DNA from: Methanolobus bombayensis | GTDB lineage: Archaea; Halobacteriota; Methanosarcinia; Methanosarcinales; Methanosarcinaceae | DNA length: 64,000 nucleotides | NCBI RefSeq assembly: GCF_017873415.1 | Contig: NZ_JAGGKD010000005.1 | Span: 1 to 64,000, forward strand | Direction: 5' to 3' | Part shown: one piece after another, positions 1,605 through 36,294 of the stretch | Numbering within the stretch: position 1 is the stretch's first letter | Layout of the letters: each line of letters opens with the position of its first letter | Program-made: the position numbers and the translations under genes | The notes under the pieces: generated by a model | Told to the model about the DNA's origin: nothing | The model's input: the letters and a program-made list of their open reading frames with translations, nothing else | Database searches by the model: none

Positions 1605-1605
1605 A

Positions 1606-15173: not shown

Positions 15174-15204
15174 GATGTCAGTTTGAAAAGATGACATCTA
15201 TTTT
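15174..15204. terminator. Hairpin between convergent genes
   Basis: GATGTCA (15174-15180) and TGACATC (15192-15198) form a perfect 7-bp stem with an 11-base loop, followed by TATTTTTACT. It lies between the methylthiotransferase and ClC stops and can serve both directions. Confidence 0.6.
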
Positions 15205-17338: not shown

Positions 17339-20300
17339 ATGCATCCCTTTATGAAAAACAGTAAGGAAAACGGGGTATTAAATTATATCAGGGTTTTATT
17401 GTCGATCTCTATAGTGCTATCGATATTTAACCCGGTTCTAATAGTGAGTGCAGAATCGGTAGTTGACGTTTCAATCAGTTCAGACAAGATTATTCTGGAT
17501 GATGTTGCCAATGTAGTTGTTTCACTTTCAAATTGTGAGAATATTACTGGTATGAACATGACACTGGTATATGACCAGAGTATAGTTTCTCTGGAATCTA
17601 CAGATAACATTACATTAAACAATTCAGTTTTGACAGGTCATTCAGTGACTGCAAGTGTTCTGGAATCTGGAAAAGTTTCTATCAATGTAACCGGGCTCGA
17701 TTCCATTACAACAGCTAAAACACCGATAATTGATTTGGAAATGCTTGGAGTGGCTAGTGGTACAACTGACATGGAATTAACGTACATTGAGTACTTCACT
17801 ACTGACAGTAGTATTCCAACTGATACCATTAGTAATGGCCAGATTATTGTGAACTCTGCTCCTGAGCTTGCAGAGATTGGCGATCGGGTTATAAATGAAA
17901 CTGAAACTCTTAATTTCTCCCTTAGTGCAGCCGATGCAGACAATGATCCACTTACATACTCAAAGAATGTAAGCTTCGGTAACATTACAGGTAATGAGTT
18001 TACCTGGACTCCTGATTCAGGGGATAATGGTACCTATGCAGTAAGCTTCACGGTTTATGACGGTTACGAAGAGGATACAGAGAATATCACAATTACAGTA
18101 AACGTAAAACCAGTCACAAATAATCCACCTGTGTTTGATACTATTGATGATATCAACACAACTGTAGGAAGCCTCGTGAACTTCACAGTTTCTGCAAACG
18201 ATGCCGACAATGATGATCTTGCATATTACAATAATTCTGTATTGCCAGAAGATTCTGTGTTTTACCCTGACAACCAGAGCTTCGCCTGGACTCCGACATC
18301 TAACGGCACATATACTGTCAATTTTGGTGTAGATGACGGAAACGGTGGAAGTGATTCTCTTGATGTAAAGATTACAGTAGATGATGTTGTTGAAACCAAT
18401 AACCCCCCTGTTCTTGCCCCAATAGGAGACTATACTGTAAATGAGTCCGAACTTCTTGAGATCACACTTAATGCTACTGACATAGAAGGTGATTCACTTA
18501 CATACTCAAAGAATGTCAGTTTTGGTAATATTACAGGTTATGTTTTCAGCTGGACTCCTGATTACAATTCTTCAGGAACCTATGCTGTTGAATTCAATGT
18601 AAGTGATGGCAATACAAGTGACTCTGAAATTGTCAATATCACAGTCAACGATGTCGTTGTTGTTACCAACAGTGCTCCAGTTTTCATTCCAATAGAAGAT
18701 AGCAATGTAAATGAGTCTGAGCTCCTGGTAATTACGCTCAATGCAACTGATGTTGATGGTGATTCACTTACATACTCAAAGAATGTCAGTTTTGGTAATA
18801 TTACAGGTTATGTTTTCAGCTGGACTCCGAATTCATCTGAGATTGGAACCCATTATGTGAATTTCAGTGTCACTGACGGTGAACTATGGGACCACTACGT
18901 TGCAAATATCACTGTAAATGAAGTAGCTTCTTCGGTTTATACACCGGAAGATCCGTTTAACTTTGTCAGTAATACAGGAAATTTTTGGGTACTTCATGAC
19001 TGGGAAGCAGGAAATGGCAATGTAACTGATGGATACAATGTCAGTTACAACGGCACCTGGTACAATACTACTGTATCAGAGTTCAATGATTCAGTTCGTC
19101 TTAATGCCCATGATTGGTCAAACATCACCGCATATGCTTACAATGCCACCAGTTCCGTTCTTTCATCTGGAATTGAAAGTAAAGTTCAGATTCCAAACAA
19201 TCCAATACAAATCACTGATGTAGCTTCCTCTTATTCAATTAGTGAGGGAGATACGCTGGCTATAGATGCAAATTATACTGATCTTGATGGAGATAGTGCC
19301 ACATTTGATTCCAACGATACTTACATTTTCAACATCGATGAAACAAGTGGTATAGCCAGCTGGTCTACAAAACATAAGGACGTTGGAACTCATTATGTTA
19401 ATTTGACAGTAACAGATGGATATGGTTCTGAAGATTATCAGCTTGTAGAGATTACTGTAAGTACAGTGAACTCTGCTCCTGAACTTGCAGCAATTGATTC
19501 TCAGTCTGTAAATGAGTCTGAAACATTGTCTTTCACTCTTTACGCAACGGATGATGACAATGAAACTCTGACATATTCAGCAAATGGTCTCCCTTCCGGA
19601 GCAACTCTGGATGTATCTACTGGTGAGTTCTCATGGACTCCCGGATATGATGACAATGGGAGTCATTATGTTGAATTTATAGTTACAGATAGCAATAATG
19701 CTAATGATACCGAAGGAGTGACGATTACAGTCAACAATGTCAATCGCATCCCTTCAATTGAATCAATAGACGAACAGTCTGTCTATGAAGACCATGAACT
19801 TACCTTTACTCTTGTTGGTAGTGATGATGACAGTGATGATACTCTCACTTATTCCATGAATGGTCTTCCGCCAGAAGCAACTTTGAATGAAACAACAGGT
19901 GAGTTTTCATGGACACCTGAGTATACCACAACTACCGAATATCGTACATTCAATGCAAATTTCATGGTTTCTGATGGTGAAGATTCTGTATCTCAGTATG
20001 TGATAATAACAGTTTACAACACTAACAGGGCACCTGAGTTCCCAGAATTCACAAATATTAGTGCATCTGAGGGTACAGAACTTGTTCTGAACATCAGTGC
20101 AGTCGACCCAGACGGTGATTCTCTTGAATACACTAAAGATGTAAACTTTGGTATTATAAACGATACAAACTTCGAATGGACTCCTGATTATAATGATTCA
20201 GGCATCCACTATGTCGAGTTCAATGTTTCAGATGGGTCACTGAGTAATACAACGGTTGTTACTATAGATGTAGCTGATGTTAACCGTGCACCTATTCTTA

Positions 20301-22186
20301 ATTATATACCTACTGTGTCTGTGAATGAAACTGAATTAGTTACTATTATTCTTAATGCGACTGATCCAGATGGTGATTATCCACTATATTATTCTATGGA
20401 TTCAAGTCTAGGTAATCTCTCAGATAATGTATTCACATGGATTCCTGATTACAGTTATCAGGGTACCACTAATTATATTAATTTCACTGTGAATGACAGT
20501 TCTCTTTCAGATACAAGAATGGCTGTAATTGGTGTAAATGATACCAATAATGCACCAGTATTTAACTACGTAGGACAGCAAAACATCAATGAAAGCGAAT
20601 ATCTATCTTTCACTGTAAATGCAACTGATCCAGATATTAACGATGAACTGACATATTATGTGTCAGGTAACCCGTCAACTGCAGTTATATCTTCGAACTC
20701 TGAAGGAATGACATTTACTTGGACTCCTGATTACACTGAGTCAGGTACATACGATGTTAGATTCATAGTTGAAGACGAAAAACATTATTCAGATACTATG
20801 GATATACGTATAGTTGTTTCAAATGTCAATCGTGCTCCTACATTTGATTCACTTCTACCAAATTACACTATAAATGAAAGTGATATATTAGAGATTACTC
20901 TTGGTTCAAATGACCTTGATAAAGACGACTCCATTTCGGTATGGGTCAATGATACGGGTAATGCATCAGGAACACTTAGTGATGATGTATACACCTGGAA
21001 TACTGATTATCATGACAACGGTACTTACAATATAGAATTCATAGTGTCGGATGGTATCATCATTACATCAGGAACAACTACGGTGTTCATTAATGATGTA
21101 AATGCGCCTCCTGAACTCTCATCCATAGGTTCAAAGAGCGTTGAAGAGAAAGAGGAGCTCACCTTTAACATCACAGCAACAGATGTTGATGAGGATATTT
21201 TGACATATTCTGCTCAGAACCTGCCAGCCAATGCAACTCTTGATAGCTCTACGGGGGAGTTCAGCTGGACACCAATAGATGGCGAAGCAGGAACATATTC
21301 TGTGATCTTCTACGTCAATGATAGTATTGACAGTGATTATGAGACAGTCTCTATTACTGTAACTGAGACATCATCCAGTTCCAGCTCAACCACCTCCAGC
21401 TCCGGTGGTGGAGGAGGAGGCGGAGGTGGAGCTCTGACCTCAGGAGAGGAATTCGATAACATCGATTTCAAGGATTATACTCTGAAGTCTGTTATAAAGG
21501 ATGTTGAAACGATATTCGCCTTCTACGAGGAGAACAACAGCATCGTTTCCCTGAGCTTTACATCCGAGCTCAATGGTGGACAGGTTAAGGCAGTTATCGA
21601 AGTACTGAAGGATACTTCTTCTCAAGTGGAGTCTGTAGCACCTGGTGTTGTTTACCAGAACATGAATATCTATGTCGATTCCAATCTTGGAGACGATGTA
21701 ATAGGTGACCGTGTGATTAACTTCAAAGTGGACAAGGCCTGGGTAGAAGAGAATAATATCGATGTGTCGTTCATCACACTCTGCAGATACAACAGTGGTG
21801 AATGGGATACGCTTTCAACTGAAGCAACGGAGGAGGATGAAGAATACTACTACTTCACTTCCAAAACACCTGGATTCTCTCCGTTCGCCATATCAAGTGT
21901 GGATCCATCTGCAATTACTGAGGAAGCTTCAGCTGAGAAGATTGCAGAAACTTCAGTGGATATAGAACAATTGAAGTCTACAGAGGATGACGATGGAGTA
22001 CCACTGGAATCAGTTGCAGATCTTCAACAGAAGGAGAGTTCATCATTCCCATACCTGCTAATTATAGGACTTATCGGGCTGGTGGCTATCGGATTAGTTG
22101 GTTACAGGAACAGAGATTATTATGACAAGTTGCGCACGCAACTAGGAAATCCTGATGGAAAACGTTACAGGCGTATTAAGAAATAA
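17339..22186 (+). CDS. Giant cell-surface protein: cohesin, 12 Ig/cadherin-like repeats, PGF-pre-PGF
   Basis: This is a 1615-residue exported protein. A signal peptide ends near residue 38 (VLIVSA). A cohesin-like domain spans about 41-170 (NITGMNMTLVYDQSIVSLES is typical). About 12 repeats of 80-95 residues follow to about 1345. Each has APxLxxIxxxxVNExExLxxxLxAxDxD, a Tyr-Ser strand, FxWTPDY, then GTYxVEFxVSDG (He_PIG/cadherin-like). An FN3-like module interrupts them at about 535-620 (GNFWVLHDWEAGNGNVTDGY). A Ser/Gly linker (1345-1370), a PGF-pre-PGF domain (about 1372-1520, ending in TPGFSPFAIS), a membrane helix (about 1567-1590) and a basic tail NPDGKRYRRIKK complete it. Asp-rich repeats suggest calcium binding. 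Many N-x-S/T sites suggest N-glycosylation. The likely role is adhesion or S-layer-associated scaffold; partners are unknown. Confidence 0.88.
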   Translation: MHPFMKNSKENGVLNYIRVLLSISIVLSIFNPVLIVSAESVVDVSISSDKIILDDVANVVVSLSNCENITGMNMTLVYDQSIVSLESTDNITLNNSVLTGHSVTASVLESGKVSINVTGLDSITTAKTPIIDLEMLGVASGTTDMELTYIEYFTTDSSIPTDTISNGQIIVNSAPELAEIGDRVINETETLNFSLSAADADNDPLTYSKNVSFGNITGNEFTWTPDSGDNGTYAVSFTVYDGYEEDTENITITVNVKPVTNNPPVFDTIDDINTTVGSLVNFTVSANDADNDDLAYYNNSVLPEDSVFYPDNQSFAWTPTSNGTYTVNFGVDDGNGGSDSLDVKITVDDVVETNNPPVLAPIGDYTVNESELLEITLNATDIEGDSLTYSKNVSFGNITGYVFSWTPDYNSSGTYAVEFNVSDGNTSDSEIVNITVNDVVVVTNSAPVFIPIEDSNVNESELLVITLNATDVDGDSLTYSKNVSFGNITGYVFSWTPNSSEIGTHYVNFSVTDGELWDHYVANITVNEVASSVYTPEDPFNFVSNTGNFWVLHDWEAGNGNVTDGYNVSYNGTWYNTTVSEFNDSVRLNAHDWSNITAYAYNATSSVLSSGIESKVQIPNNPIQITDVASSYSISEGDTLAIDANYTDLDGDSATFDSNDTYIFNIDETSGIASWSTKHKDVGTHYVNLTVTDGYGSEDYQLVEITVSTVNSAPELAAIDSQSVNESETLSFTLYATDDDNETLTYSANGLPSGATLDVSTGEFSWTPGYDDNGSHYVEFIVTDSNNANDTEGVTITVNNVNRIPSIESIDEQSVYEDHELTFTLVGSDDDSDDTLTYSMNGLPPEATLNETTGEFSWTPEYTTTTEYRTFNANFMVSDGEDSVSQYVIITVYNTNRAPEFPEFTNISASEGTELVLNISAVDPDGDSLEYTKDVNFGIINDTNFEWTPDYNDSGIHYVEFNVSDGSLSNTTVVTIDVADVNRAPILNYIPTVSVNETELVTIILNATDPDGDYPLYYSMDSSLGNLSDNVFTWIPDYSYQGTTNYINFTVNDSSLSDTRMAVIGVNDTNNAPVFNYVGQQNINESEYLSFTVNATDPDINDELTYYVSGNPSTAVISSNSEGMTFTWTPDYTESGTYDVRFIVEDEKHYSDTMDIRIVVSNVNRAPTFDSLLPNYTINESDILEITLGSNDLDKDDSISVWVNDTGNASGTLSDDVYTWNTDYHDNGTYNIEFIVSDGIIITSGTTTVFINDVNAPPELSSIGSKSVEEKEELTFNITATDVDEDILTYSAQNLPANATLDSSTGEFSWTPIDGEAGTYSVIFYVNDSIDSDYETVSITVTETSSSSSSTTSSSGGGGGGGGGALTSGEEFDNIDFKDYTLKSVIKDVETIFAFYEENNSIVSLSFTSELNGGQVKAVIEVLKDTSSQVESVAPGVVYQNMNIYVDSNLGDDVIGDRVINFKVDKAWVEENNIDVSFITLCRYNSGEWDTLSTEATEEDEEYYYFTSKTPGFSPFAISSVDPSAITEEASAEKIAETSVDIEQLKSTEDDDGVPLESVADLQQKESSSFPYLLIIGLIGLVAIGLVGYRNRDYYDKLRTQLGNPDGKRYRRIKK
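18488..18828 (+). repeat. Perfect 71-base direct repeat within the first surface gene
   Basis: Bases 18488-18558 and 18758-18828 are identical over 71 positions and lie exactly 270 bases (90 codons) apart. They encode the strand-turn core of neighbouring repeats 3 and 4 (from GDSLTYSKNV to the FSWTP motif). Other repeats in this gene are far more diverged at the DNA level, so this points to a recent duplication or gene conversion. Confidence 0.85.
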
Positions 22187-22208
22187 GAATTCAGTAGGCA
22201 TATCGATT

Positions 22209-22250
22209 TGGCAGCGCATTTTTACAGGTGATCTGCCATTTCCTTTTTTT
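22209..22250 (+). terminator. Probable terminator after the first surface gene
   Basis: TGGCAG (22209-22214) can pair with CTGCCA (22233-22238) across an 18-base loop, followed by TTTCCTTTTTTT. The stem is short and the loop long, so efficiency is uncertain. Confidence 0.45.
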
Positions 22251-22402
22251 ATTCAGCATTCATGACCTCCATGGCTTTGCAAATATATTTAGCAATGCAT
22301 ATTCAATTAAGTTTATTATTTTAAAAGCTCAAGATAAAGTACCATGGAGGGGATTTTATCTTTAAATACGTCAGGTGCGGATTTGCACATATAGCTGGAA
22401 GT

Positions 22403-24907
22403 TTGATTAATTCTAAGAATCCAAATAATTGCATATATTTGTTAAAGATGCTATTAATTCTTGTTTTTGTGACAGGGCTGCTAATTTCGGAATCAACTGC
22501 AGCAAGCACTTCTCCTGTACTGGAAGTAATTGGGGACCGTTCTGTTAATGAGGACAACCAGATCTCATTTACTCTTTCTGCCACAGATCCAGATGATGAT
22601 TCTCTTCTATTCTCTGCTTCAGATATGCCATTTGGTGCCATGTTGAATAATTCTACAGGAGAGTTCAGATGGACACCAACCTATGAACAGGCAGGGACTT
22701 ACCTGACAAAGTTTGTTGTATCTGACGGATCAAATGTGGATTCGGAATACATCACAATAACTGTGAATGATGTTAACCGTGAACCTGTGCTCTCCCCTCT
22801 GAGCACTATTCAGGTAAACGAGAATGAAGAGATTAATATTACACTTTCTGCCACAGACCCTGATGGTGATCTTCTTGTTTTTGGTAAGGATGTTTCTTAT
22901 GGAAACATCGAAGACAATATTTTCACCTGGACACCAGGATATACTGATCAGGGTATACATACAATTGAATTCAGTGTAAGTGATGGTCAGTCAAAAGTTA
23001 CGCGAAATGCGGAGATCAATGTTACAAATGTAAACAGAGATCCTGTGTTATATCCAATTAGTGATACGATTGTCCAGACCAATGAAGATATTATCATTGA
23101 ATTGAATGCTTTTGATCCGGATGGAGATTCTCTTAATTACACAAACATTACTGAATTGCCCGGAGGAGCAACACTCGATCCCTCAACAGGTGTTTTCATC
23201 TGGACAAATCCAGCAGAACTTGGCACTAAAGCATTGACTTTCAAAGTAGATGATGGTTTTGAATCAGATACAGAAACTGCCACAATAGTAATAGTTGCAA
23301 GTAACCCAAATCTCCCTCCTGTGATAGATACACTGGATACACTCTATGTAAATGAGAATTCCACTCTGAATTTTGAATTGTCAGCGACAGATCCAGAAGG
23401 GGATTCACTGGCTTTTTCATGGCCTACAGGATTGCCGAATACCGCATCTATATCTATGCAAAGCTCTTCGGTTAATGTCAGCTGGACTCCTACATATGAG
23501 GAAGCAGGTAATTACCATGCTGTATTCAGGGTAGCAGACAGTCATTCCAGCTATCGGGTGGTGGATATAGTTGTTTCAGATATCAACCGTGCTCCAGTGA
23601 TTGATTTAGTGGCAGATAGTACAGTTGCCGAAAATGATGTACTATACATCAATCTATCCGCTTCTGATGAGGATAACGATGATCTTACATTTACTACTAA
23701 CAGTAGCCTTGGAATTATAAGAGGTAACACTTTCATCTGCAAACCGGATTATAGTGATGAAGGCTCTCATGATGTGTTATTCACAGTTTCCGATGGAAGT
23801 CTGAGTAACAGTACAGTTTCAAAGATTACTGTCACAGATGTTAATATGCCTCCAAAACTCAATCCAGTGAGTTCAAAGGAAATAGATTATAATGATACTC
23901 TGGAGTTTAATTTATCAACAGAAGATGTAGATACTGACGATAGTTTAACATATACTTGTCTTGAAACACCTGCAAATGCCACTCTGGATAGTTCATCAGG
24001 ATTATTTACCTGGACCCCTGTTGAAAGTCAGGTGGGCACTTATTCTGTAAGCTTCTATGTTACTGATGGTAATGCAGAAGATTATGAAACAGTTTCTATA
24101 ACAGTTACAGAACCTTCTGAATCTGAAAGTAAAAGCACTTCATCTTCCGGAAGCAGTGGTGGAGGTGGTGGAGGTTCGCAGAACACAGGAGAAAAGTATG
24201 AGAATATTGATTTTAAGGACTATGCGCTTAAATATGTCATGAAGGACAAAGAAACAATATTCGAGTTCGATGAGCCTGCTAATAATATAGTATCCATTAG
24301 TTTTGTATCCCAACTGAATGGTGGCCAGACAAAAGCATTGATTGAGATTTTAAAAGGAACTTCAAGTCTTGTAAGTTCAGCTCCTTCCGGCAATGTATAC
24401 AGGAATCTCAATATCTGGGTTGGGGATTCAAAGTTTCCTTCTGATGTTATTGACGATGTGGTTATAAGGTTCAAAGTTGAAAAGTCATGGGTCTATTCAA
24501 ATGATATTGAACCGGAATCAATAGTTCTTTCCCGCTATTATAGTGAAAAGTGGAGTCCTCTTGAGACGTCTTTTGAAAGTGAAGGCGATGATTATCTGTA
24601 TTATGCAGCCAAATCTCCTGGTTTTTCACCTTTTGTCATTCTTGTTCCTGAGATCTCTGAAACGGTTCTAAGTGAAGACATATCTGATGAAAACACAACA
24701 GTCATGTCTATGGGTGATGAAATTGTTCCTGTTGAAACAGGAGTAAATCAGGATAAAAAGAGCATTAAAACTTTACTATTCTTTTTGCTTGCAGCTATAA
24801 TAGCTGCAGTGGGTGCAGTGGGTTACAGATACAGGGGTCATTATGAGAAATTGTATCTTCAGATAAGTAATCCTGATGGGAAAAGATACAGACGCTTTAA
24901 GAAATGA
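22403..24907 (+). CDS. Cell-surface protein with six Ig/cadherin-like repeats and PGF-pre-PGF
   Basis: This is an 834-residue paralog of the preceding surface protein, without a cohesin domain. A signal peptide (LLILVFVTGLLISESTAA) is followed directly by six repeats ending near residue 570, each with the WTP-type core (one has FICKPDY, one FIWTNP). A Ser/Gly linker (about 572-593), a PGF-pre-PGF domain (about 594-745, ending in SPGFSPFVIL), a membrane helix (about 791-809) and a basic tail NPDGKRYRRFKK follow. The start is uncertain: TTG at 22403 gives a charged N-region before the signal helix, while ATG at 22448 gives a very short one, and neither has a good Shine-Dalgarno. It lies 216 bases after the first paralog and probably has its own promoter (AAATATATTTAGC near 22280). 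Confidence 0.85.
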   Translation: MINSKNPNNCIYLLKMLLILVFVTGLLISESTAASTSPVLEVIGDRSVNEDNQISFTLSATDPDDDSLLFSASDMPFGAMLNNSTGEFRWTPTYEQAGTYLTKFVVSDGSNVDSEYITITVNDVNREPVLSPLSTIQVNENEEINITLSATDPDGDLLVFGKDVSYGNIEDNIFTWTPGYTDQGIHTIEFSVSDGQSKVTRNAEINVTNVNRDPVLYPISDTIVQTNEDIIIELNAFDPDGDSLNYTNITELPGGATLDPSTGVFIWTNPAELGTKALTFKVDDGFESDTETATIVIVASNPNLPPVIDTLDTLYVNENSTLNFELSATDPEGDSLAFSWPTGLPNTASISMQSSSVNVSWTPTYEEAGNYHAVFRVADSHSSYRVVDIVVSDINRAPVIDLVADSTVAENDVLYINLSASDEDNDDLTFTTNSSLGIIRGNTFICKPDYSDEGSHDVLFTVSDGSLSNSTVSKITVTDVNMPPKLNPVSSKEIDYNDTLEFNLSTEDVDTDDSLTYTCLETPANATLDSSSGLFTWTPVESQVGTYSVSFYVTDGNAEDYETVSITVTEPSESESKSTSSSGSSGGGGGGSQNTGEKYENIDFKDYALKYVMKDKETIFEFDEPANNIVSISFVSQLNGGQTKALIEILKGTSSLVSSAPSGNVYRNLNIWVGDSKFPSDVIDDVVIRFKVEKSWVYSNDIEPESIVLSRYYSEKWSPLETSFESEGDDYLYYAAKSPGFSPFVILVPEISETVLSEDISDENTTVMSMGDEIVPVETGVNQDKKSIKTLLFFLLAAIIAAVGAVGYRYRGHYEKLYLQISNPDGKRYRRFKK

Positions 24908-25124
24908 TGATGTGTTTGAAATCGATACTTTCTATCATTTTTTAGATACAACGTAGTAAATATTCAGATTATGTTGCTGCGTAATTATTATATCGATGTA
25001 ATTAAAAAAATATATAATCTATTAGCGATTAGAATATAAATGGTGGGTGGTAGTGCTTTCTTCTTTAAAGGTACACCAATGATAAAAACGTTCAGTTAGA
25101 AGGCAGTTTCATCCTCCTTTAAGA

Positions 25125-28100
25125 ATGCTTTGGGGGAAAAGCATGCTTCCTAAAGGAACAGAAAAATGTAAAAAAATACCTTTTATTTTCTTAAGTATAG
25201 CTTTATCAATATTACTGCTGTCGGTACTTGCCAGTGCATATTCGAACGAAACAGTAGGTGTGGGGTCAACTGTTGTAAATCCGGGAGTTCCATTTTCTCT
25301 GCCAGTTTTTATAGATAATATCACAAATATCAGTTCATTGTCCCTAGATCTTATTTTTAATAGTTCGTCTCTTCAAATAGATGATATTGATGGTAATAGT
25401 TCATCGTCAGTATCAGATACTCAATTCCATCTTGATAATTCCACAGGTTTTGCCAACATGACACTTGAGTTTGATGATCTTTCAAGTGAAGAAGAAATTA
25501 ATGTTGCAAATCTTATGTTCATATCACTGTCCAGTGGGCATTATGACATAATGCTACACGACGTTTCTTTCTCAAACAATACAACTTCATTTCCTGCAAA
25601 TTTTGTTGTCAATGGTTCTGTGAGGGTAAACTATCCTCCTGAAATAGTTAATATTGAAAATATGACAGTAGATGCAGGGTTCAATTTGAATTTTACTCTC
25701 TCTGCCACTGACCTGGATGATGACAATCTGATTTTTGGTGTGGAAGGAATTCCGGATGGCTATTCTCTCAATTCCAGTAACGGATCATTTTCATGGACTC
25801 CAACAGCTACAGATGCTGATAATAACTATAGTGCTAATTTCTCGGTTTCTGACGGCTATGCATCAGACTTTACTTATGCAACTATTTTTGTAAATGAGAT
25901 AGTTGATGACATCGATAATCCACCTGTGATTAAATTCATAGGCAACAAGTCATTAAATGAAACAGAAACTCTTTCATTTGTGGTCGAAGCGACAGATGCA
26001 GATAATAATCCCATATCATATTCTGCAAATGCACTTCCAGGCAATTCCACATTGAATGAAACGTCAGGTGAATTTAATTGGGTTACTGGATATTCCGATG
26101 CTGGAGAGTATTCTGTAGAATTCCTAGCATCATCTACTAATCTTACAGACTCGGAACTAATCACAATATTTGTTGAAAATCTAAATCGCCCCCCTATTCT
26201 TTCTGTAATCAATGATGTTGAGATAAATGAAAATGACTCTCTCTCAATTACATTGTCAGCTAATGACCCCGATAATAATGATTTAACATATTCATCCAAT
26301 GTTTCGTTTGGAAATATGTCGGGAAATATTTTTACCTGGGTTCCTGCTTTCAATGAAGCTGATACTTATGTTGTTGAGTTTACTGTAAGTGATGGTATCG
26401 ATTCTGACTCTAAAAATACTGTCATAACTGTAAACAACGTAAATCGCCCCCCTGTCCTTGGTGAAATAGGCACTCAATCAGTTTCTGAGAATTCTCTTCT
26501 TGAGATCACTCTTTCAGCAACTGATGATGATTCGGCAGGGATTCTTACATATTCCACAAACGCCAGTTTTGGAAATCTAACAGACAATGTTTTCACCTGG
26601 ACTCCGGGCTCAGAGGAATCTGGTGTTTATGCTGTTGAATTCAATGTAAGTGATGGTTCTCTGGCTGACTCGGAAATTGTAACAATCAATGTTACTAATG
26701 TCAACAATGCTCCTGTTCTGGAGGAAATTGGCGAACAATATGTTCACGAAAATGAAACTCTGACCATTAACCTTTCAGCTACAGATGATGATTCCGGGGC
26801 TACTCTAAGCTACTACACCAATGCTACATTTGGGAATCTGTCAGACAACGTTTTCACCTGGATTCCTAATTACGATGCTGCAGGATCTCATATTACAGAA
26901 TTTACTGTCAGTGATGGCACTGATTCGGATTCTGAAGTAGTGACAATTAATGTACAAAATACTAATCGTGCTCCTGTTCTTTCCCCTATTGATGATGTTG
27001 AGGTTAATGAGAATAATTCTTTTTCAATCACTTTATCAGCCTCAGATCTTGATGGCAATAATCTGAATTATTCTACAAATGCCACATTTGGTAACATATC
27101 TGGAAATGACTTTAACTGGACACCGGATTTTGATGATGCTGGTACATACAATGTTGAATTCACTGTCAGTGATGGCACTGATTCGGATTCCGAAGTTGTA
27201 GTTATTATCGTAAATAACGCAAATCGTCCCCCTATTCTTAATTACATAGGTCCACAATCTGTATTGGAAAACAATCTTCTTGAAATTTCACTTTCTGCTA
27301 CTGATGAGGATTCTGAAGACATTCTGATATATGGCTACAACACCAGTTTCGGAGAACTTAATGATAATGTTTTCACTTGGACACCAGATTCAGAAAACTC
27401 TGGTATTTATGCTGTTGAATTCAATGTAAGCGATGGCTCCCTAGTTGACTCAGAAATAGTGATCATAAACGTCACTAATGTCAACAATGCCCCAGTTCTG
27501 GATGAGATTGGTGATAAAGATATTAATGAAAATGACACTTTGACAATTTCCCTTTCAGCTAATGATGATGATTCGGGAGATACCCTAAGTTACTACACCA
27601 ATGCTACATTTGGTGATCTGTCTGACAATATTTTCATCTGGACACCTGATTATGATGATTCAGGTGTTTACAACGTTGAATTTAATGTAAGTGATGGATA
27701 TCTGGTAGATTATGAGCTGGTAACAATTACAGTAAATAATGTTAATAATGAACCGATTTTGTCATATATTGGTGAGCAGTTTGTAAATGAAAATGAAACT
27801 TTAACAATTACTCTTTCCGCGACAGATGCCGATGCCGATGCAAATTTAAATTATTCAACCAATGCTACATTTGGCAATATGTCAGGCAATACTTTCACCT
27901 GGAGCCCGGATTATGATTCAGCTGGAATTTATTCTGTGGAGTTTACTGTGGATGATGGCATGGATTCAGATTCTGAAACAGTAATCATTAATATAGAAAA
28001 CATTAATCTTGCTCCTGTTCTTTCCCCTATTGATGATATTGTGGTCAATGAAAATGAACTTCTGTCAATTACTTTATCGGCTAATGATCCTGATGGCAAT

Positions 28101-31100
28101 AATCTGAATTATTCTACAAATTCCACATTTGGTAATGTGGCCGGTAATATCTTCACCTGGACTCCAGATTACGATGCTGAAGGAATATATGTTCTTGAGT
28201 TCACTGTAAGTGATGGTCTTGATTCTGATAGTGAGTTGGTTACAGTCGAAGTGAACAATGTTAACCGAGCTCCAGTCCTTTCTTCACCGGGATCATATTC
28301 TGCTGCAGAGAATTCTTCCCTTGTGATTACACTTTCAGCAACTGATCCTGATACAGGTGATTCTCTTTTTTATAGCCACAATGCTACATTTGGCATTCTG
28401 GAAGACAATGTCTTCACCTGGGTACCTGATTTTGATCACTCAGGTGTCCATACTATCGAATTTACTGTTAGCGATGGCAACCTTTCAGATTCGAAGGTTG
28501 CTGTTATCACTGTAAGTAATACAAATCGTCCACCATACATCGAAATAATTGATGATAAGTTGTTAAATGAAAATGAAGAACTGATTATCGACATAAATGG
28601 AACTGATCCTGATGGTGATTCTCTTACTTATGAGACAAATGTAGATTTTGGTACACTTGAAAATAACATTTTTACCTGGACTCCCGGTTTTGATGATAGT
28701 GGAATCTATGATGTGAGCTTCACAGTAAGTGATGGCAACCTGTCATACACAGAAGATATCAAAATAGCAGTTGGTAACACCAATGTTCCTCCTGTTTTGA
28801 ATCCAATTGGTGGAAAAACTGTAGACGAAAATAATTCTCTGTCATTCACCATAAGTGCTACCGATGAAGATTCAGGAGACACTCTGACCTATGCTGCTTC
28901 CGGGCTTCCTTCAGGTGCATCATTCAATGATCAGACACGTCAATTCTTCTGGAAACCAACATATAACCAGTCAGGAACTCACAATGTAGTTTTTGAAGTT
29001 AGTGATGGAACTTTCAGTGACACTGAACTTGTGCAGATTGTTGTTAATAATATTAACATTGCTCCTGTCATTGGTTCTATAGGTAACATGACAGTTAATG
29101 AAAATTCTGAAATCAACTTTATTGTAACAGCTACAGACCATGATAAGGATAGCCTGGTATATTCGGTTTCAAATCCATCCCAGGTGGGCAGCTTCAATTC
29201 AATAACCCATGAATTCAGCTGGACACCTGATTATGGTGAATCAGGTGTCTATTCTCTTACATTCACGGTAGATGACGGCGACCTTTTTGATTCAGCGACA
29301 ATCTACATTGAAGTATTAAATGTTAATCGTGTTCCTGAGCTGGATAACATTGGTAACAAAGCAGTCAATGAAGCAGAAGAACTATCATTCACAATAAGTG
29401 GTAGCGATCCAGATTCTGATCCCCTTGTTTATTCAGCCAGTGGAATTCCCGATGGTGCAGATTTCGATGAATCCACACACATTTTTACCTGGACGCCTGA
29501 TTACGATGACTCAGGAACTTATGATGTAACTTTCACATTGAGCGATGGAAGTCTTACAGATTCTGAAACAATTACCATTAGTGTTGGTTCAGTAAATCTT
29601 CCCCCTGAGCTTGAATCCATTGGTGACAAAACTGCCATTGAAGGTTCAGAAGTTAGTTTCAGTATAAGTGCCATTGACCCTGATATGAATGACCTGACTT
29701 ACTCCACATCTGCTCTTCCACAGGGCGCGTATTTTGATGAGTCCACTCTTGATTTTTCATGGACTCCTGACTATAACCAGTCAGGTATTCATTCCATAAC
29801 TTTCACAGTAAGCGATGGTGAACTTACTGATTCCGAAACTATATTCATAGATGTTGAGAACACAAACCGCGCTCCTGTAATGGGAGACATCGGCAATAAA
29901 AATGTAGATGAAAATACAACATTGGTTTTCAAGGTCAGTGCTGATGATCCAGATTTGGACTCTCTTACATATTCAGCTACAGGTGTACCGGATACGGCAG
30001 ATTTTGATTATTTGACCCGGGAATTTACCTGGACTCCAAATTATGGTGAATCAGGTACTTATTCTGTGACTTTTAATGTTACAGATGGTGCCCTTTCCGA
30101 TTCTGAGACTATTGTTATAAGTGTTGGTTTTGTGAACCGTGCTCCTGATTTTGAATCAATAGGGGACAAAACTATCAGTGAAGGCTCAGAACTCAATTTC
30201 AGTATAAGTGCTACGGATCCTGATGAGGACGCTCTTGCATACTCTACATCTGAACTTCCTGAAGGTGCTGATTTTGATGAAATTACTCATTTATTCTCCT
30301 GGACTCCAGATTACGAACAGGAAGGCAGCTACTCCATAACATTCACTGTAAGTGATGGTGATCTTTCCGATTCTGAAATAATATCCATAGATGTTCAGGA
30401 CACAAACCGTGCTCCTGTCCTGTCAGAAATAGGTAACAAGGAAACCGCAGAAAATACAGAACTATCATTTACCATAAATGCTGAAGATCCTGATTCTGAT
30501 TCTCTTACGTATTCAGCTGACAATCTTCCAAATGGTGCCAACTTCGATACGTCAAGCCACAGTTTTGTATGGACTCCCGGATATGATGATTCCGGCACTT
30601 ATGAAGTAACTTTCAAAACAAGCGATGGTGAGCTCTCTGATACAGAGACAATTACCATCACAGTAGGCTCGGTGAATCGTCCACCAGTGCTCGCATATAT
30701 AGGAAATAAGCAAATAAATGAAAACTCTGAGCTTGTGTTCCAGATTGCTGCAGCAGATCCTGATTCTGATTACCTTATATTCTATATTGAAAATAAACCA
30801 ACAGGTGCAGCATTTAACGGAAATACAGGTCAGTTCCGCTGGACTCCGGACTATAATGCATCAGGAACTTACTCCGTAACTTTCGGAGTAAATGATGGCT
30901 CTTTGAACGATTCGGAAACTATCTACATAACCGTAAATAATGTAAACCTTGCTCCGGTTCTTGATAATATCGGAAATAAACAGGTAGATGAAGGTTCTGA
31001 ACTTTCATTTAATATATCTGCAATGGATCATGATGGTGACAATTTGATATATTATGCTACCGGTATTCCACAGGGCGCCAGTTTTGATCCGGATACCCAT

Positions 31101-34070
31101 GAATTTAGCTGGATTACAGATTATGATGATTCAGGTACATATTCTGTAACATTCTATGTAAGTGATGCTTATCGTGTTACTTCCAAAACTATATTCATCA
31201 GTGTTGGTTCAGTCAATCGTGCTCCTGAGCTTGTTCCTATTGGCAATAGAACAATTGATGAAGGTTCTGAACTCAGGTTCACGGTGACAGGCTCAGATCC
31301 TGAAGCAAGTGATTTGACTTATTCCGTTACAGGAATACCCGATGGTGCCGATTTCGATGGAGATACGCATGAGTTTATCTGGATGCCTGATTATGACCAG
31401 TCCGGAACATATAATGTCACTTTCAGCGTAAGTGATGGTGAGCTTTCGGACTCTGAAACAGTCACCATTACAGTCGAACATGTAAATATTGCGCCTGTTC
31501 TGTCGGTCATAGGTGACGTATATATAGATGAGAATCAACTTTTGACAATAAGTCTTCAGGCAAGTGATGATGATGATGATTCAGGTGACACATTACATTT
31601 CTCAGTAAAGGATGCTCCGGTGGGTTCCGCAATAAATGAGTCTACAGGTATCTTCACCTGGATTCCATCATACGAAGATGCTGGAATCTATGATATTGTA
31701 TTCTCTGTATCAGATGGTACAACTGAAGATACTCAAAATGTGGAAATTACAGTTATTAATATAAACAGACTTCCACAAATGAATGTATCTTCTCAGGTAT
31801 ATGTGGCTGAGAACAGTACACTTAACCTTGATTTGAACGCTTCAGATCCTGACAATACTCCATTGTCAATTACTACTGATTTCTCAATTGGTAGTTTAAA
31901 TAATGGTATCTTCACCTGGACACCTGGTTATGAAGATGAAGGAAGCTACGATGCTACCTTTACTGTCAGCGATGGAGAGCTAGAAGTAAGCCAGACAGTT
32001 GAGATTATAGTTACAGGTTCAAACTCAGCCCCGGTGCTCTCTCCCATAGATAGTATTGTTGTTAATGAACTCGAAACGCTATCGATTAATCTTACAGCTA
32101 AGGACATAGATGATGACGAACTTAACTTTTCAAAGAATGTGGAATATGGTGAGCTCGCAGACAATTTATTTACATGGACTCCCGGAATAAATGATAAAGG
32201 AATTTACTATATTGTTTTTACAGTATCAGATGGCCAGCTTTCTGACTCTAAGACTGCCATGATTGCTGTAGGTAATACGAATATTCCCCCAACTATAGTA
32301 AAAACAGGAATTCAATATGGTAAAGAAAGCGAAACTCTGGAGTTTACTATTAATGCTACTGACCCGGATAATGAGACACTGATTTATGCAGTCACAGATC
32401 TTCCATCCGGTGCTACCTTTAATACTTCCACAGGTTCTTTTGAGTGGACTCCCACTTACGAGCAATCAGGTGAATATAGCATTGAATTCCGTGTATCTGA
32501 TTTGCTATACACAGCTTTTGACACTGTACTTGTCAATGTTGAAAACGTCAATCGTGCGCCATTATTTGACCCAATACCCATGTGTAAGGTAAATGAGACC
32601 GAACAGGTAAAGATAAATCTCAGTGCGACAGACCCTGACAGAGATACCATTTCATTTTCAACAGACTTTGATAATGGACAGATAATCGGCGATACATTCG
32701 TGTGGGATACGGGTTATTACGACAGTGGGGAGTATTATATACTTTTCAATGTTACAGATAATGATCTTAGCAGTAGCACGACGGTTCATTTAAAAGTGAA
32801 TCCAACTAACATGCCTCCGGAATTTGATAATATAGGTTCGCATTCAGTTTATGAGAACGAAACCATTGAGTTTTCTGTAAATGCAACAGATGCTGACAAT
32901 GACACTCTTACATATTCCATTAGTGGCAAACCGTCAGGTTCTTCCTTTGATCCGAAAACAAGATTATTCCGTTGGACTCCGGATTATCGTCAATCAGGGA
33001 CATATTCGGTAGAATTCCATGTGACTGATGGTGAGCTGAATGATTCAGAGGCTATAACAATAAGGGTCTATGATAAAGATAACACAAAACCAACCGATTA
33101 CAGTGGTTTTTCATCTTCTGAAAGTAGCGGTAGTGGCGGAGGTGGTTCTTCCAGTGGTGCTGAAGACTATGATAATGTTGCATACAAAGATTACTCTATT
33201 AAATATGTGACCCAGGGCAGACAGATAGAATTTGCTTTCCCTAATTCAGAGAATGATCTTGAAACAGTAGGTTTCACTGCATTGAAGGCAGCTGGTCAGG
33301 TTAAAACAGTTATTGAAATACTGCATGATCGTTCTACTCTTGTAAACACAAACCCGCCGGGTAATGTGTATCGCCATGTTAACATATGGGTGGGAGATAC
33401 CAAGTTTAATTCCGGAGCTTATTTCTCATCAGCAGAGATTACTTTTAAGGTACAAAAGCAATGGCTTGAAGAGAACAATGCTGAACCCTCCTCTGTAAAG
33501 CTTTACAGATACTCCGGAGGTTCATGGAATCAACTCACAACGTCCAGAATAGGTGCTGATGCTAAAAATTACTATTTTAAAGCTTATTCCCCTGGCTTCT
33601 CTCCATTCGCAATCGTGAGTACTGGCAGCACTCAGGTTCTACAAAATTCTGTTCCAGAACCATCGGCACAGAATACACAGGTGATATATAAGAGCAATAC
33701 AGATCTAAATTCCGTGACGGCAGTTACTGATTCAGAAATTATGAGTAAAGCACTGGAAAATGAACCAGCAAGTCCCTTCAACACAAGGATCTTCTTCATA
33801 GGAATTGTAGGTATTTTGTTAATAGGCTCTGCAATTGGATACCATTCAAGGAATGAATCACCAGTCCTGAGAAGGTATTATGAAGCAATTCACACCTTTG
33901 TGCTTGGAATAAAGAACGCTGTAGAATGGACAAGTCATAAATTAAGTTCAGAATCCATTCATGAGGATTATACAGCTCTCAGTGTGAAACTTAATGAGAT
34001 CAGGAATGTGGACTATAAGGCAATTTATGAGAAAAAAATAGCCCTAATAAAAGAAAGACAAAAACAGTAG
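25125..34070 (+). CDS. Giant cell-surface protein: cohesin, about 28 Ig/cadherin-like repeats, PGF-pre-PGF
   Basis: At about 2980 residues this is the largest gene in the window. A signal peptide (FIFLSIALSILLLSVLASA) is followed by a cohesin-like domain (about 40-170, ISSLSLDLIFNSSSLQ). About 28 repeats of roughly 86 residues run to about 2650, nearly all with the FxWTP core and the SDGxxxDSExxxIxVxNxN linker. Then come a Gly/Ser linker, a PGF-pre-PGF domain (about 2681-2832, YSPGFSPFAIV), a membrane helix (about 2888-2908) and a cytosolic tail of about 73 residues, which differs from the short basic tails of the other two. ATG at 25125 and ATG at 25143 are both possible; the second has GGGGG nine bases upstream. 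Repeats are Asp-rich and N-glycosylation sites are frequent. If extended, the repeat stalk would reach on the order of 100 nm (inference). Confidence 0.88.
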   Translation: MLWGKSMLPKGTEKCKKIPFIFLSIALSILLLSVLASAYSNETVGVGSTVVNPGVPFSLPVFIDNITNISSLSLDLIFNSSSLQIDDIDGNSSSSVSDTQFHLDNSTGFANMTLEFDDLSSEEEINVANLMFISLSSGHYDIMLHDVSFSNNTTSFPANFVVNGSVRVNYPPEIVNIENMTVDAGFNLNFTLSATDLDDDNLIFGVEGIPDGYSLNSSNGSFSWTPTATDADNNYSANFSVSDGYASDFTYATIFVNEIVDDIDNPPVIKFIGNKSLNETETLSFVVEATDADNNPISYSANALPGNSTLNETSGEFNWVTGYSDAGEYSVEFLASSTNLTDSELITIFVENLNRPPILSVINDVEINENDSLSITLSANDPDNNDLTYSSNVSFGNMSGNIFTWVPAFNEADTYVVEFTVSDGIDSDSKNTVITVNNVNRPPVLGEIGTQSVSENSLLEITLSATDDDSAGILTYSTNASFGNLTDNVFTWTPGSEESGVYAVEFNVSDGSLADSEIVTINVTNVNNAPVLEEIGEQYVHENETLTINLSATDDDSGATLSYYTNATFGNLSDNVFTWIPNYDAAGSHITEFTVSDGTDSDSEVVTINVQNTNRAPVLSPIDDVEVNENNSFSITLSASDLDGNNLNYSTNATFGNISGNDFNWTPDFDDAGTYNVEFTVSDGTDSDSEVVVIIVNNANRPPILNYIGPQSVLENNLLEISLSATDEDSEDILIYGYNTSFGELNDNVFTWTPDSENSGIYAVEFNVSDGSLVDSEIVIINVTNVNNAPVLDEIGDKDINENDTLTISLSANDDDSGDTLSYYTNATFGDLSDNIFIWTPDYDDSGVYNVEFNVSDGYLVDYELVTITVNNVNNEPILSYIGEQFVNENETLTITLSATDADADANLNYSTNATFGNMSGNTFTWSPDYDSAGIYSVEFTVDDGMDSDSETVIINIENINLAPVLSPIDDIVVNENELLSITLSANDPDGNNLNYSTNSTFGNVAGNIFTWTPDYDAEGIYVLEFTVSDGLDSDSELVTVEVNNVNRAPVLSSPGSYSAAENSSLVITLSATDPDTGDSLFYSHNATFGILEDNVFTWVPDFDHSGVHTIEFTVSDGNLSDSKVAVITVSNTNRPPYIEIIDDKLLNENEELIIDINGTDPDGDSLTYETNVDFGTLENNIFTWTPGFDDSGIYDVSFTVSDGNLSYTEDIKIAVGNTNVPPVLNPIGGKTVDENNSLSFTISATDEDSGDTLTYAASGLPSGASFNDQTRQFFWKPTYNQSGTHNVVFEVSDGTFSDTELVQIVVNNINIAPVIGSIGNMTVNENSEINFIVTATDHDKDSLVYSVSNPSQVGSFNSITHEFSWTPDYGESGVYSLTFTVDDGDLFDSATIYIEVLNVNRVPELDNIGNKAVNEAEELSFTISGSDPDSDPLVYSASGIPDGADFDESTHIFTWTPDYDDSGTYDVTFTLSDGSLTDSETITISVGSVNLPPELESIGDKTAIEGSEVSFSISAIDPDMNDLTYSTSALPQGAYFDESTLDFSWTPDYNQSGIHSITFTVSDGELTDSETIFIDVENTNRAPVMGDIGNKNVDENTTLVFKVSADDPDLDSLTYSATGVPDTADFDYLTREFTWTPNYGESGTYSVTFNVTDGALSDSETIVISVGFVNRAPDFESIGDKTISEGSELNFSISATDPDEDALAYSTSELPEGADFDEITHLFSWTPDYEQEGSYSITFTVSDGDLSDSEIISIDVQDTNRAPVLSEIGNKETAENTELSFTINAEDPDSDSLTYSADNLPNGANFDTSSHSFVWTPGYDDSGTYEVTFKTSDGELSDTETITITVGSVNRPPVLAYIGNKQINENSELVFQIAAADPDSDYLIFYIENKPTGAAFNGNTGQFRWTPDYNASGTYSVTFGVNDGSLNDSETIYITVNNVNLAPVLDNIGNKQVDEGSELSFNISAMDHDGDNLIYYATGIPQGASFDPDTHEFSWITDYDDSGTYSVTFYVSDAYRVTSKTIFISVGSVNRAPELVPIGNRTIDEGSELRFTVTGSDPEASDLTYSVTGIPDGADFDGDTHEFIWMPDYDQSGTYNVTFSVSDGELSDSETVTITVEHVNIAPVLSVIGDVYIDENQLLTISLQASDDDDDSGDTLHFSVKDAPVGSAINESTGIFTWIPSYEDAGIYDIVFSVSDGTTEDTQNVEITVININRLPQMNVSSQVYVAENSTLNLDLNASDPDNTPLSITTDFSIGSLNNGIFTWTPGYEDEGSYDATFTVSDGELEVSQTVEIIVTGSNSAPVLSPIDSIVVNELETLSINLTAKDIDDDELNFSKNVEYGELADNLFTWTPGINDKGIYYIVFTVSDGQLSDSKTAMIAVGNTNIPPTIVKTGIQYGKESETLEFTINATDPDNETLIYAVTDLPSGATFNTSTGSFEWTPTYEQSGEYSIEFRVSDLLYTAFDTVLVNVENVNRAPLFDPIPMCKVNETEQVKINLSATDPDRDTISFSTDFDNGQIIGDTFVWDTGYYDSGEYYILFNVTDNDLSSSTTVHLKVNPTNMPPEFDNIGSHSVYENETIEFSVNATDADNDTLTYSISGKPSGSSFDPKTRLFRWTPDYRQSGTYSVEFHVTDGELNDSEAITIRVYDKDNTKPTDYSGFSSSESSGSGGGGSSSGAEDYDNVAYKDYSIKYVTQGRQIEFAFPNSENDLETVGFTALKAAGQVKTVIEILHDRSTLVNTNPPGNVYRHVNIWVGDTKFNSGAYFSSAEITFKVQKQWLEENNAEPSSVKLYRYSGGSWNQLTTSRIGADAKNYYFKAYSPGFSPFAIVSTGSTQVLQNSVPEPSAQNTQVIYKSNTDLNSVTAVTDSEIMSKALENEPASPFNTRIFFIGIVGILLIGSAIGYHSRNESPVLRRYYEAIHTFVLGIKNAVEWTSHKLSSESIHEDYTALSVKLNEIRNVDYKAIYEKKIALIKERQKQ

Positions 34071-34181: not shown

Positions 34182-36281
34182 ATGCTGGAGAAAATGTTCA
34201 ATCCTGATTCTGTAGCCGTTATCGGTGCGTCCAGGAAAGAAGGTAAAGTAGGGAGAGCTGTACTTGAAAATCTGATGCAGAACAGTGAGCTCACCATCAT
34301 ACCTATTAATCCTAATGTTGACGAGATACTGGGGCTTCCATGTTATCATAATATACTGGAGGTTCCGACTGAAACACAGGTCGACCTTGCAATAGTCGTG
34401 GTTCCGGCAAAGTTTGTGCCTGGTTCCATTGATGAGTGTGGCAGGGCCGGCGTTACAAATGTAATTGTTATATCTGCCGGTTTCAAGGAAGCTGGTATTG
34501 AAGGTTCACGCCTTGAACGCGAATGCATAGCTTTATCTAAAAAATATGGAATAAACCTAATAGGTCCCAATTGTCTGGGTATAATTGATACCGCTTCAGG
34601 ACTTAACGCTTCTTTTGCGGCTAATATGGCATATGAAGGAAATATTGCAATGATGTCTCAGTCAGGTGCTATATGTACTGTGACTTTGGACTGGGCTGAA
34701 AGGATTGGCGTTGGTTTTTCCAAATTCATAAGTCTTGGTAATAAAGCCGTACTTGCAGAAAATGATTTTTTACAGTTGTTTGAAAATGATCCTTCAACAG
34801 CAGTTATTGCAGCGTACCTTGAAGGTGTAAAAGACGGCCCTGAATTCATCAGGATTGCAGAAAGAGTATCACGTTCCAAACCAATAATTATAGTAAAATC
34901 AGGACGAACCTCAGTTGGTTCCAAAGCCGTATCATCACATACCGGTACACTTGCAGGTTCGGATGCTGCCTACAATGCCGCTTTTAAACAGGGTGGAGTA
35001 CTGCGTGCGGATTCACTTGAGGAAATGCTCGATTACAGTCGTGCTTTCTCAGTTTGTCCTCTGCCGGAAGGCAGGAATATTGCAATAGTCACCAACGCAG
35101 GTGGTCTTGGTATTCTGACAGCGGATGCATGTTATAACTCAGGTCTTTCAATAGCTTCATTTGAAGAGAAGACTGTGGAAAGATTAAGAGAAAAACTGCC
35201 ACCGGCAGCAAACTTCTATGACCCTGTTGACGTGTTGGGAGATGCAGGTGCAGACCTTTATGAGCATGCTCTTGATGTTGTTCTGGATGATATAAACGTA
35301 AACGGAATTATAGTTCTCGTGTCACCTCAGTCAATGACAGATGTTCCGGGAATTGCTGAAAAGGTTGCAGAAAAGATCAAGGAATCTAAAAAGCCAATCC
35401 TATGTAACTTTGCAGGTGGAAGCAGGATCGCAGAAGGAGAGGAAATCCTCAACAAATATGGAATTCCAAATTATTCCTCTGCAGAAAGAGCAGTTGCAAG
35501 TATGAATGCTCTCTGCAACTATTACACGATAAAGAATCACAAACGTGGTAAGCCTGCAGAGACAAAAGCAGACTGGGAATATGCCCGCTCATTCATGGAT
35601 GAAGCATCTGAAAATAAAAGAAGGATGCATGGCCTTGAATCACTGGATATCCTGAAAGCATACGATATCCCTGTTGTGGATTCCAGGATTGCAAAGACTC
35701 TTCCGGATGCAATCAAGGCAGCAGAAGATATGGGATATCCTATTGTCATGAAGATCCTGTCACCTGACATCTCGCATAAGAGTGATGTAGGTGGTATTCG
35801 CCTGAATCTCAGGCATGCAGATGATGTGGAACGTGCTTACAATTCAATGATGTCAGATGTAAGACACTATATGCCCGATGCAACTATAACAGGCGTCCAG
35901 CTACAGAAGATGATAAGCGGAGGAAAAGAAGTAATCATCGGAATGGACAGGGATCCGCAATTTGGTCCATTGCTCATGTTCGGACTTGGAGGAACTTATG
36001 TGGAGTTCCTGAAAGATGTTTCTTTTGCAGTTGCTCCTATAACAGAGGCTGAGGCGAGACATATGGTATCATCAATTAAGACTTATCCCTTAATTGCAGG
36101 TGTAAGAGGGGAGGCGTCATCGGATATCGACTCAATAGTTCAGACACTTTTGAAGGTGTCACAGCTAGTTACGGATTTTCCGGAAATATTAGAATTTGAA
36201 ATTAATCCTTTAATGGTAATGCCCGAAGGTCAGGGATGTGTTGCAATGGATATCAGGTTCACACTGAATCTGAATGAGTAA
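34182..36281 (+). CDS. ADP-forming acetyl-CoA synthetase, fused alpha-beta
   Basis: This 699-residue enzyme makes acetate and ATP from acetyl-CoA, ADP and phosphate, or runs in reverse. It combines the alpha part (CoA-binding domain, DSVAVIGASRKEGKVGR; CoA-ligase domain with the phosphorylated histidine H253 in SSHTGTLAGSD) and the beta part, an ATP-grasp domain from about residue 480 (LKAYDIPVVDSRI, YPIVMKILSPDISHKSDVGG). Fused forms occur in many archaea. The substrate may be acetate or another acyl group. The gene starts after a stretch rich in T following the giant surface gene, and is followed 13 bases later by a phosphotransacetylase-like gene, an arrangement that suggests joint control of acetyl-CoA/acetate metabolism. 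Confidence 0.9.
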   Translation: MLEKMFNPDSVAVIGASRKEGKVGRAVLENLMQNSELTIIPINPNVDEILGLPCYHNILEVPTETQVDLAIVVVPAKFVPGSIDECGRAGVTNVIVISAGFKEAGIEGSRLERECIALSKKYGINLIGPNCLGIIDTASGLNASFAANMAYEGNIAMMSQSGAICTVTLDWAERIGVGFSKFISLGNKAVLAENDFLQLFENDPSTAVIAAYLEGVKDGPEFIRIAERVSRSKPIIIVKSGRTSVGSKAVSSHTGTLAGSDAAYNAAFKQGGVLRADSLEEMLDYSRAFSVCPLPEGRNIAIVTNAGGLGILTADACYNSGLSIASFEEKTVERLREKLPPAANFYDPVDVLGDAGADLYEHALDVVLDDINVNGIIVLVSPQSMTDVPGIAEKVAEKIKESKKPILCNFAGGSRIAEGEEILNKYGIPNYSSAERAVASMNALCNYYTIKNHKRGKPAETKADWEYARSFMDEASENKRRMHGLESLDILKAYDIPVVDSRIAKTLPDAIKAAEDMGYPIVMKILSPDISHKSDVGGIRLNLRHADDVERAYNSMMSDVRHYMPDATITGVQLQKMISGGKEVIIGMDRDPQFGPLLMFGLGGTYVEFLKDVSFAVAPITEAEARHMVSSIKTYPLIAGVRGEASSDIDSIVQTLLKVSQLVTDFPEILEFEINPLMVMPEGQGCVAMDIRFTLNLNE

Positions 36282-36294
36282 GGAGATGGTAAAT

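Follow-up and report, generated by a model that had tools for sequence, protein, structure and literature searches.

A putative surface-display locus of Methanolobus with membrane-anchored repeat stalks and exchangeable tips

Three adjacent genes of Methanolobus bombayensis probably encode membrane-anchored display stalks with exchangeable tips, and the site that they occupy appears to be a surface-display locus that is fixed in the genus Methanolobus. We assign a probability of about 0.7 to this reading as a whole, including the predicted topology of the products, i.e., export by a signal peptide and retention by a single C-terminal membrane helix. The window, which is the complete stretch of 64,000 nucleotides that was analysed (contig NZ_JAGGKD010000005.1, positions 1 to 64,000), harbors ORF1, ORF2 and ORF3 as neighbors on the same strand with 1615, 834 and 2981 amino acids as first called, in agreement with the initial annotation, which had listed adjacent frames of 1615, 834 and about 2980 residues. 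The three proteins follow a common plan of repeats, Ser/Gly linker, PGF-pre-PGF domain and one hydrophobic C-terminal helix. The presence of linker, domain and membrane anchor in all of them had also been proposed initially and is borne out by PGF_pre_PGF (TIGR04213) matches far above the cut-off of 28 bits and by a single helix in each protein. The features of the locus are as follows.

15204-16964, minus strand: left flank, ClC chloride channel with CBS domains (Pfam PF00654, E = 1e-94); fixed boundary.
17339-22186, plus strand: ORF1 (gene 1), 1615 aa, 12 repeats, exchangeable ectodomain.
17339-17452, plus strand: ORF1 predicted signal peptide (38 aa), conserved left end of the cassette; DNA similarity to genomes G005, G022 and G024 stops at 17451-17453.
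17453-17851, plus strand: ORF1 cohesin-like head (PF00963, 16.2 bits, sub-threshold).
17852-21370, plus strand: ORF1 stalk with repeats 1-4, FWVLHDW-type module (~18926-19195) and repeats 5-12 (repeat HMM).
21371-21445, plus strand: ORF1 Ser/Gly linker, right end of the cassette; DNA similarity to G005 resumes at 21397.
21446-21895, plus strand: ORF1 PGF-pre-PGF domain (TIGR04213, 152 bits).
22046-22183, plus strand: ORF1 predicted membrane helix and cytoplasmic tail, ending in NPDGKRYRRIKK; matches to helix plus tail are confined to the genus.
22403-24907, plus strand: ORF2 (gene 2), 834 aa, TTG start, exactly six repeats, without cohesin head.
22508-24112, plus strand: ORF2 stalk with repeats 1-6 (repeat HMM).
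24191-24640, plus strand: ORF2 PGF-pre-PGF domain (TIGR04213, 170 bits); AlphaFold model with Foldseek matches to GAIN, NLRP1 and ZU5-UPA.
24767-24904, plus strand: ORF2 predicted membrane helix and tail, ending in NPDGKRYRRFKK.
25143-34070, plus strand: ORF3 (gene 3), 2975 aa from the likely start (25125 and 2981 aa in the initial annotation), 28 repeats.
25236-25640, plus strand: ORF3 cohesin head (PF00963, 25.3 bits with a cut-off of 24.1; structure model).
25629-33074, plus strand: ORF3 stalk with repeats 1-28; repeats 1 and 23-28 conserved between species, middle variable.
33162-33617, plus strand: ORF3 PGF-pre-PGF domain (TIGR04213, 168 bits).
33753-34067, plus strand: ORF3 predicted membrane helix and long conserved tail (~75 aa), 74% mean identity in six orthologs.
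34182-37374, plus strand: right flank, acyl-CoA ligase (ADP-forming type) and Pta-like/DRTGG protein (Pfam, NCBIfam); fixed boundary.

The translation start of ORF3 is probably the ATG at 25143 (Met-7), because five orthologs carry a stop codon immediately upstream of the matching methionine. Pyrrolysine read-through in the ORF3 heads of relatives was considered and rejected, as the in-frame stops are located upstream of this start. Interrupted gene-1 frames were left aside in G015 and G014, where N runs occur in the respective stretches, and in G008, which has an in-frame TAA. A promoter scan was also set aside; its sigma-70 model is uninformative for an archaeon.

The conservation of the locus was investigated in the corresponding region of 24 other Methanolobus genomes, among which a few loci are cut by contig ends and some of those from MAGs are incomplete or interrupted by N runs. 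Wherever a contig reaches both flanks, the genes are bordered by the ClC channel on one side and the acyl-CoA ligase on the other; contigs that reach one side carry the corresponding flanking genes there, and surface-protein genes of this kind are present at the site in nearly every Methanolobus genome examined. All three genes are found again in the four closest relatives, where they encode 11-12, 6 and 25-30 repeats, and the remaining loci comprise two to four genes, with gene 1 duplicated or with gene 2 or gene 3 missing; gene 2 is absent, for example, from the locus of G004. Scattering or absence of the genes in close relatives had been named at the outset as a result that would speak against a cluster, and the comparison documents that they lie together at one site. 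Every match of the ORF3 head that carries a species name is from Methanolobus. One clade carries a fourth island gene (G021, L080 5830-7575, minus strand; G006, L077 13967-15850, plus strand), which encodes a PGF-pre-PGF-like base with a different tail and, above it, an Asp/Ser-rich ectodomain that is very acidic and lacks repeats. A transposase-like ORF, IS66-like by eye, is located between two gene-1 copies of G002 (L063 ~4980-6296, minus strand). Elsewhere in the window, two large multi-PAS histidine kinases, one of them with a MEDS sensor domain, are encoded close together (44498-48016, minus strand; 49654-53037, plus strand), and a short tandem repeat (27 bp x 2.4, 97%) is found at the end of a small ORF (54898-54963).

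Judging from the comparison of sequences, gene 1 behaves as a cassette in which unrelated ectodomains are exchanged between a conserved signal peptide and a conserved anchor. A comparison of M. bombayensis with G005 gives identities of 87-95% for the flanking proteins, 88% for the signal peptides and 90/76/85% for the anchor parts, but the value for the gene-1 ectodomains drops to 32%, which equals background. The similarity at the DNA level is lost at 17453, the predicted signal-peptidase site, and is back at 21397 within the Ser/Gly linker. Comparable boundaries are found throughout the genus: the left end of the cassette falls at amino acids 36-41 in 33 gene-1 pairs and the right end at most 8 aa from the Gly run in 14 pairs, the pairs sharing history and therefore not being independent of one another. 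The ectodomains presented in this frame include cohesin with cadherin-like repeats, the FWVLHDW-type module, Big_3, Big_2, PKD and unassigned sequence, a turnover that may reflect selection for diversity. The module of G005 is present in three copies with identical DNA; it occurs at no other place in 27 genomes, and a search of plasmids retrieved no source for it. The anchors can be copied as well. In G022, the anchor of gene 2 closely duplicates that of gene 1 (89/90/85% vs ~55/30/50% elsewhere; 896 bp at 85% DNA identity), thereby indicating recombination between paralogs.

The stalks were analysed with a custom HMM, which was built from the repeats of ORF1-3 themselves and recovered 12, 6 and 28 units of ~86-94 residues each. 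These counts are exactly those of the cadherin/Ig-like repeats in the initial annotation, and Pfam assigns the units to Big_9/He_PIG/cadherin-like families far over the cut-off (Big_9 E = 2e-77 for ORF1, 2e-46 for ORF2 and 4e-197 for ORF3), so that the repeats are Ig/cadherin-like by family assignment. They are rich in acidic DxD-type motifs. The stalk of ORF1 contains in addition a non-repeat module of the FWVLHDW type (residues ~530-619), which represents the head of gene 1 in G022, G024 and G008. The stalk of ORF2 has six repeats in all 12 genomes in which they could be assigned, i.e., in M. bombayensis and 11 orthologs. The repeats of these orthologs correspond colinearly and one to one with a single weak exception in G024, the baseline for this matching being the mean identity of 37% between repeats of the same protein. 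A candidate counterpart of gene 2 in the distant clade of G006, G010, G015, G021 and G026 has seven repeats in all five genomes. The repeat number of gene 3 varies from 13 to 30 across genomes, with gains and losses chiefly in the middle of the stalk; repeat 1 is kept, and repeats 23-28 are kept in most orthologs. Repeat arrays with 94-100% identity at the DNA level are present in some relatives, with 8.9 copies of a 276-bp unit at 99% identity in gene 3 of G004 and 6.3 copies of 270 bp at 94% identity in that of G002. TRF found no DNA-level tandem array in the island of M. bombayensis; the repeats of this strain are old, and there are no recent copies in its own array. The stalks had initially been understood as a length series, but the length of ORF2 is constant while the others drift, mainly in the middle of ORF3, and the three therefore do not form one loose series.

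The heads of the stalks differ among the three proteins. ORF3 exceeds the PF00963 cut-off only narrowly, and the structure prediction that had been recommended for the N-terminal domain substantiated the assignment: an AlphaFold (AF2) model built with nine orthologs reached a pLDDT of 91, and its 50 best PDB matches in Foldseek are all cohesin modules or cohesin-containing entries (best E 1.4e-12), among them the archaeal cohesin 2xdh. The modelled cohesin fold at the tip of ORF3 is accordingly firm. The head of ORF1 is probably a divergent cohesin despite its sub-threshold score, because the ORF3 head as a query retrieves ORF1-type heads of relatives with E-values down to 3e-14. The N-terminal cohesin of the initial annotation thus stands for ORF3 and is weak in ORF1, while the headless ORF2 has no PF00963 match at all. 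Over cut-off, the genome encodes nine cohesin matches and one clear dockerin, whose protein represents the candidate partner of the cohesin heads; the pairing is predicted and, with many cohesins facing one clear dockerin, unproven. The dockerin closes a large protein (L029; G000 C14, ~36.5-38.2 kb; 1-1668, plus strand), and the C-terminal part preceding it is composed of cohesin-like, Ig-like and PKD-like sequence. Cohesin-like sequence and dockerin on the same protein could allow it to chain cohesin partners, and no enzyme domain was found within the stretch read. Another open frame of 749 aa with three cohesin matches over the cut-off (G000 C4:100997-102262, L019-L021) resembles a small scaffoldin-like protein in a methanogen.

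At the opposite end, the predicted cytoplasmic tail of genes 1 and 2 comprises ~22 residues and ends in N-x-DGKRYRR-x-[KR]. Since the 46 listed tails were collected with the DGKRYRR motif, its invariance among them is partly circular. A search with the segment of membrane helix and tail, however, gave matches in 23 of 27 Methanolobus genomes, at the loci described here, and in none of 33 genomes outside the genus. The tail of ORF3, ~75 residues in length, is unlike that of genes 1 and 2. Processing by archaeosortase was considered and rejected. Archaeosortase A is present in the genome together with six PGF-CTERM (TIGR04126) matches over the cut-off, but none of these is located in the island, and there is no PGF directly before the helices of ORF1-3, which are therefore read as membrane proteins rather than archaeosortase substrates. 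This distinguishes the three proteins, which are clear members of the PGF-pre-PGF family (TIGR04213), from many other members that end in PGF-CTERM or another short C-terminal helix instead of a membrane helix with a conserved tail.

The combination of cohesin, repeat stalk and PGF-pre-PGF had been regarded as unusual for a methanogen, but 159 of the 247 genomes sampled from the phylum (Halobacteriota) encode PGF-pre-PGF, and the domain occurs 18 times in the M. bombayensis genome, where two further proteins pair it with cohesin (one on C2 near 254-257 kb, the other on C9 near 7-8 kb). ANME and methanogens are known from earlier genome comparisons to encode PGF-pre-PGF as well as cohesins and dockerins (PMC5244752, PMC9012536). 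Structure prediction, likewise recommended for this domain, was performed for ORF2 (44 sequences; 237-aa query including a disordered tail) and provided a beta-sandwich with pLDDT >90 for most of the first 150 residues. Its best PDB matches in Foldseek, nine of the first eleven rows (ranks 1-6, 8, 10 and 11), are GAIN domains of adhesion GPCRs, NLRP1 or ankyrin ZU5-UPA, the best of them being weak (E 1.7e-3, TM 0.37 over the 237-aa query). In the model, an F-S turn (residues 142-145) lies between the last two strands (134-141 and 146-151), as does the cleavage turn of GAIN, in which the last strand is the tethered agonist (PMC11697300). All 44 island domains contain the F-S pair, and 37 wider family members have F-S (33), L-S (3) or F-G (1). 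The motif [F/L]-S-x-F-A-[I/V] is reminiscent of the GPS consensus HL|S/T-x-F-A-[V/I], and a conserved Trp is located 25 residues upstream (23 in GPS). The residue before the turn is usually Gly, and the GAIN-type His is absent, so that the sites have neither the HL|S/T nor the HFS-type catalytic sequence. Homology to GPS at the sequence level was rejected: the profile PF01825 has no match in the genome, and hhalign of PGF-pre-PGF with GPS scored no better than the reversed control. Pfam detected no ZU5, GPS or UPA in any of the 44 anchor domains, and a PDB sequence search with the PGF profile returned only chance matches.

The model makes a link of the PGF-pre-PGF fold to GAIN/ZU5-type sandwiches plausible, although suggestive only. 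It may have been anticipated in part by a paper on the GAIN/ZU5/Nup98 superfamily, which reportedly describes bacterial and archaeal ZU5-like domains and HFS as the ancestral site. The order of adhesive repeats, GAIN-like domain and membrane also resembles the ectodomains of adhesion GPCRs and polycystins. Adhesion GPCRs differ, however, in having seven membrane helices rather than one, and their helical subdomain A is missing here, as is the His before the site, in addition to the weak Foldseek E-value and the lack of profile-level similarity. The more far-reaching idea is doubtful, namely that PGF-pre-PGF is an archaeal GAIN/ZU5-type domain with the [F/L]-S turn as GPS site and undergoes self-cleavage or force-dependent opening immediately outside the membrane; a pulled stalk would then be shed or would signal via the cytoplasmic tail. 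By analogy cleavage may occur at this turn, but it is unproven.

Several other explanations were weighed against a display locus. The initial annotation envisaged cell-cell adhesins or fibres of graded reach, whose cadherin/Ig-like repeats would bind like to like with tips of little importance. The nature of the repeats with their many acidic DxD-type motifs and the three stalk lengths agree with this proposal, which is conceivable but on balance unlikely, because ORF2 keeps exactly six repeats in 12 genomes next to a varying gene 3 and because much of the gene-1 change between species is an exchange of ectodomain type that includes non-cadherin modules. The constant, headless ORF2 suggests a distance constraint and would also suit a structural role in the wall, with struts tying the S-layer to the membrane and ORF2 as a fixed-length spacer. 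The membrane helix and the conserved cytoplasmic tails would fit such struts, but Pfam finds no S-layer domain in the three proteins, a rapid turnover of gene-1 ectodomains is unlike a structural part, and G004 does without gene 2, which makes this role somewhat less probable still. A cellulosome-like scaffold, in which cohesin heads would gather dockerin-bearing enzymes for polymer degradation, could draw on the modelled fold of the ORF3 head and the dockerin protein of the genome; it is the least probable explanation, given only one cohesin per stalk and a sole dockerin protein whose stretch read ends in cohesin-, Ig- and PKD-like sequence without an enzyme domain. Archaeal cohesins and dockerins are moreover known outside cellulose degradation (PMC9012536). 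The modelled ORF3 head shares its fold with such non-cellulosomal cohesins (Archaeoglobus fulgidus, 2xdh), from which ORF3 differs as a single predicted head on a 28-repeat stalk.

Large Ig proteins that have a variable region and are encoded at a lineage-specific locus, with one module unique to one species, are also reminiscent of a VARTIG-like or polymorphic-toxin-like module for conflict or self-recognition. This is very improbable: VARTIG varies at its C-terminal Ig domain, whereas the variable part is located upstream of a conserved C-terminus in our locus, which belongs to Methanolobus rather than Thermococcales, and no toxin or immunity domain was found. The VARTIG paper itself already reports that Methanosarcinales harbor Ig loci of mosaic composition (Makarova et al. 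2021, PMC8416519). These Ig/PKD loci likewise encode several large adjacent surface proteins with Ig folds, mosaic domains and C-termini that are conserved or homogenised by recombination, and the mosaic of gene 1 agrees with this remark, so the kind of locus is already known and the variant is new. It is distinguished by the fixed site between two housekeeping genes across one genus, by cassette boundaries that could be placed at the signal-peptidase site on one side and in the linker on the other, and by the genus-specific tail motif.

In the display locus that we favor, each product would be exported by its signal peptide and fixed in the membrane by the single C-terminal helix. Outward from the membrane, the PGF-pre-PGF beta-sandwich would form the base, the Ser/Gly linker a flexible hinge and the acidic Ig/cadherin-like repeats the stalk, which, probably stiffened by Ca2+, would carry the tip through and beyond the S-layer. 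The cohesin tip of ORF3, and probably that of ORF1, would dock a dockerin-bearing secreted protein, ORF2 would provide a short headless stalk of constant length, and other Methanolobus genomes would present modules other than cohesin at the tip. Recombination at the conserved ends would swap gene-1 ectodomains between lineages, and tandem amplification would alter the number of middle repeats in gene 3 and hence its reach. Species would therefore differ in what is presented and how far out.

The locus may serve as a natural experiment on archaeal surface diversification, with one fixed site, conserved ends and exchanged or expanded middles across a whole genus with cultured species. The separation of a constant-length stalk from varying ones would lend itself to simple length tests. 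If the link to GAIN/ZU5 were true, a testable mechanism, i.e., cleavage or force-dependent opening near the membrane, would become available for a surface domain that is very common in archaea, and the domain would be tied to the mechanosensitive receptors of animals.
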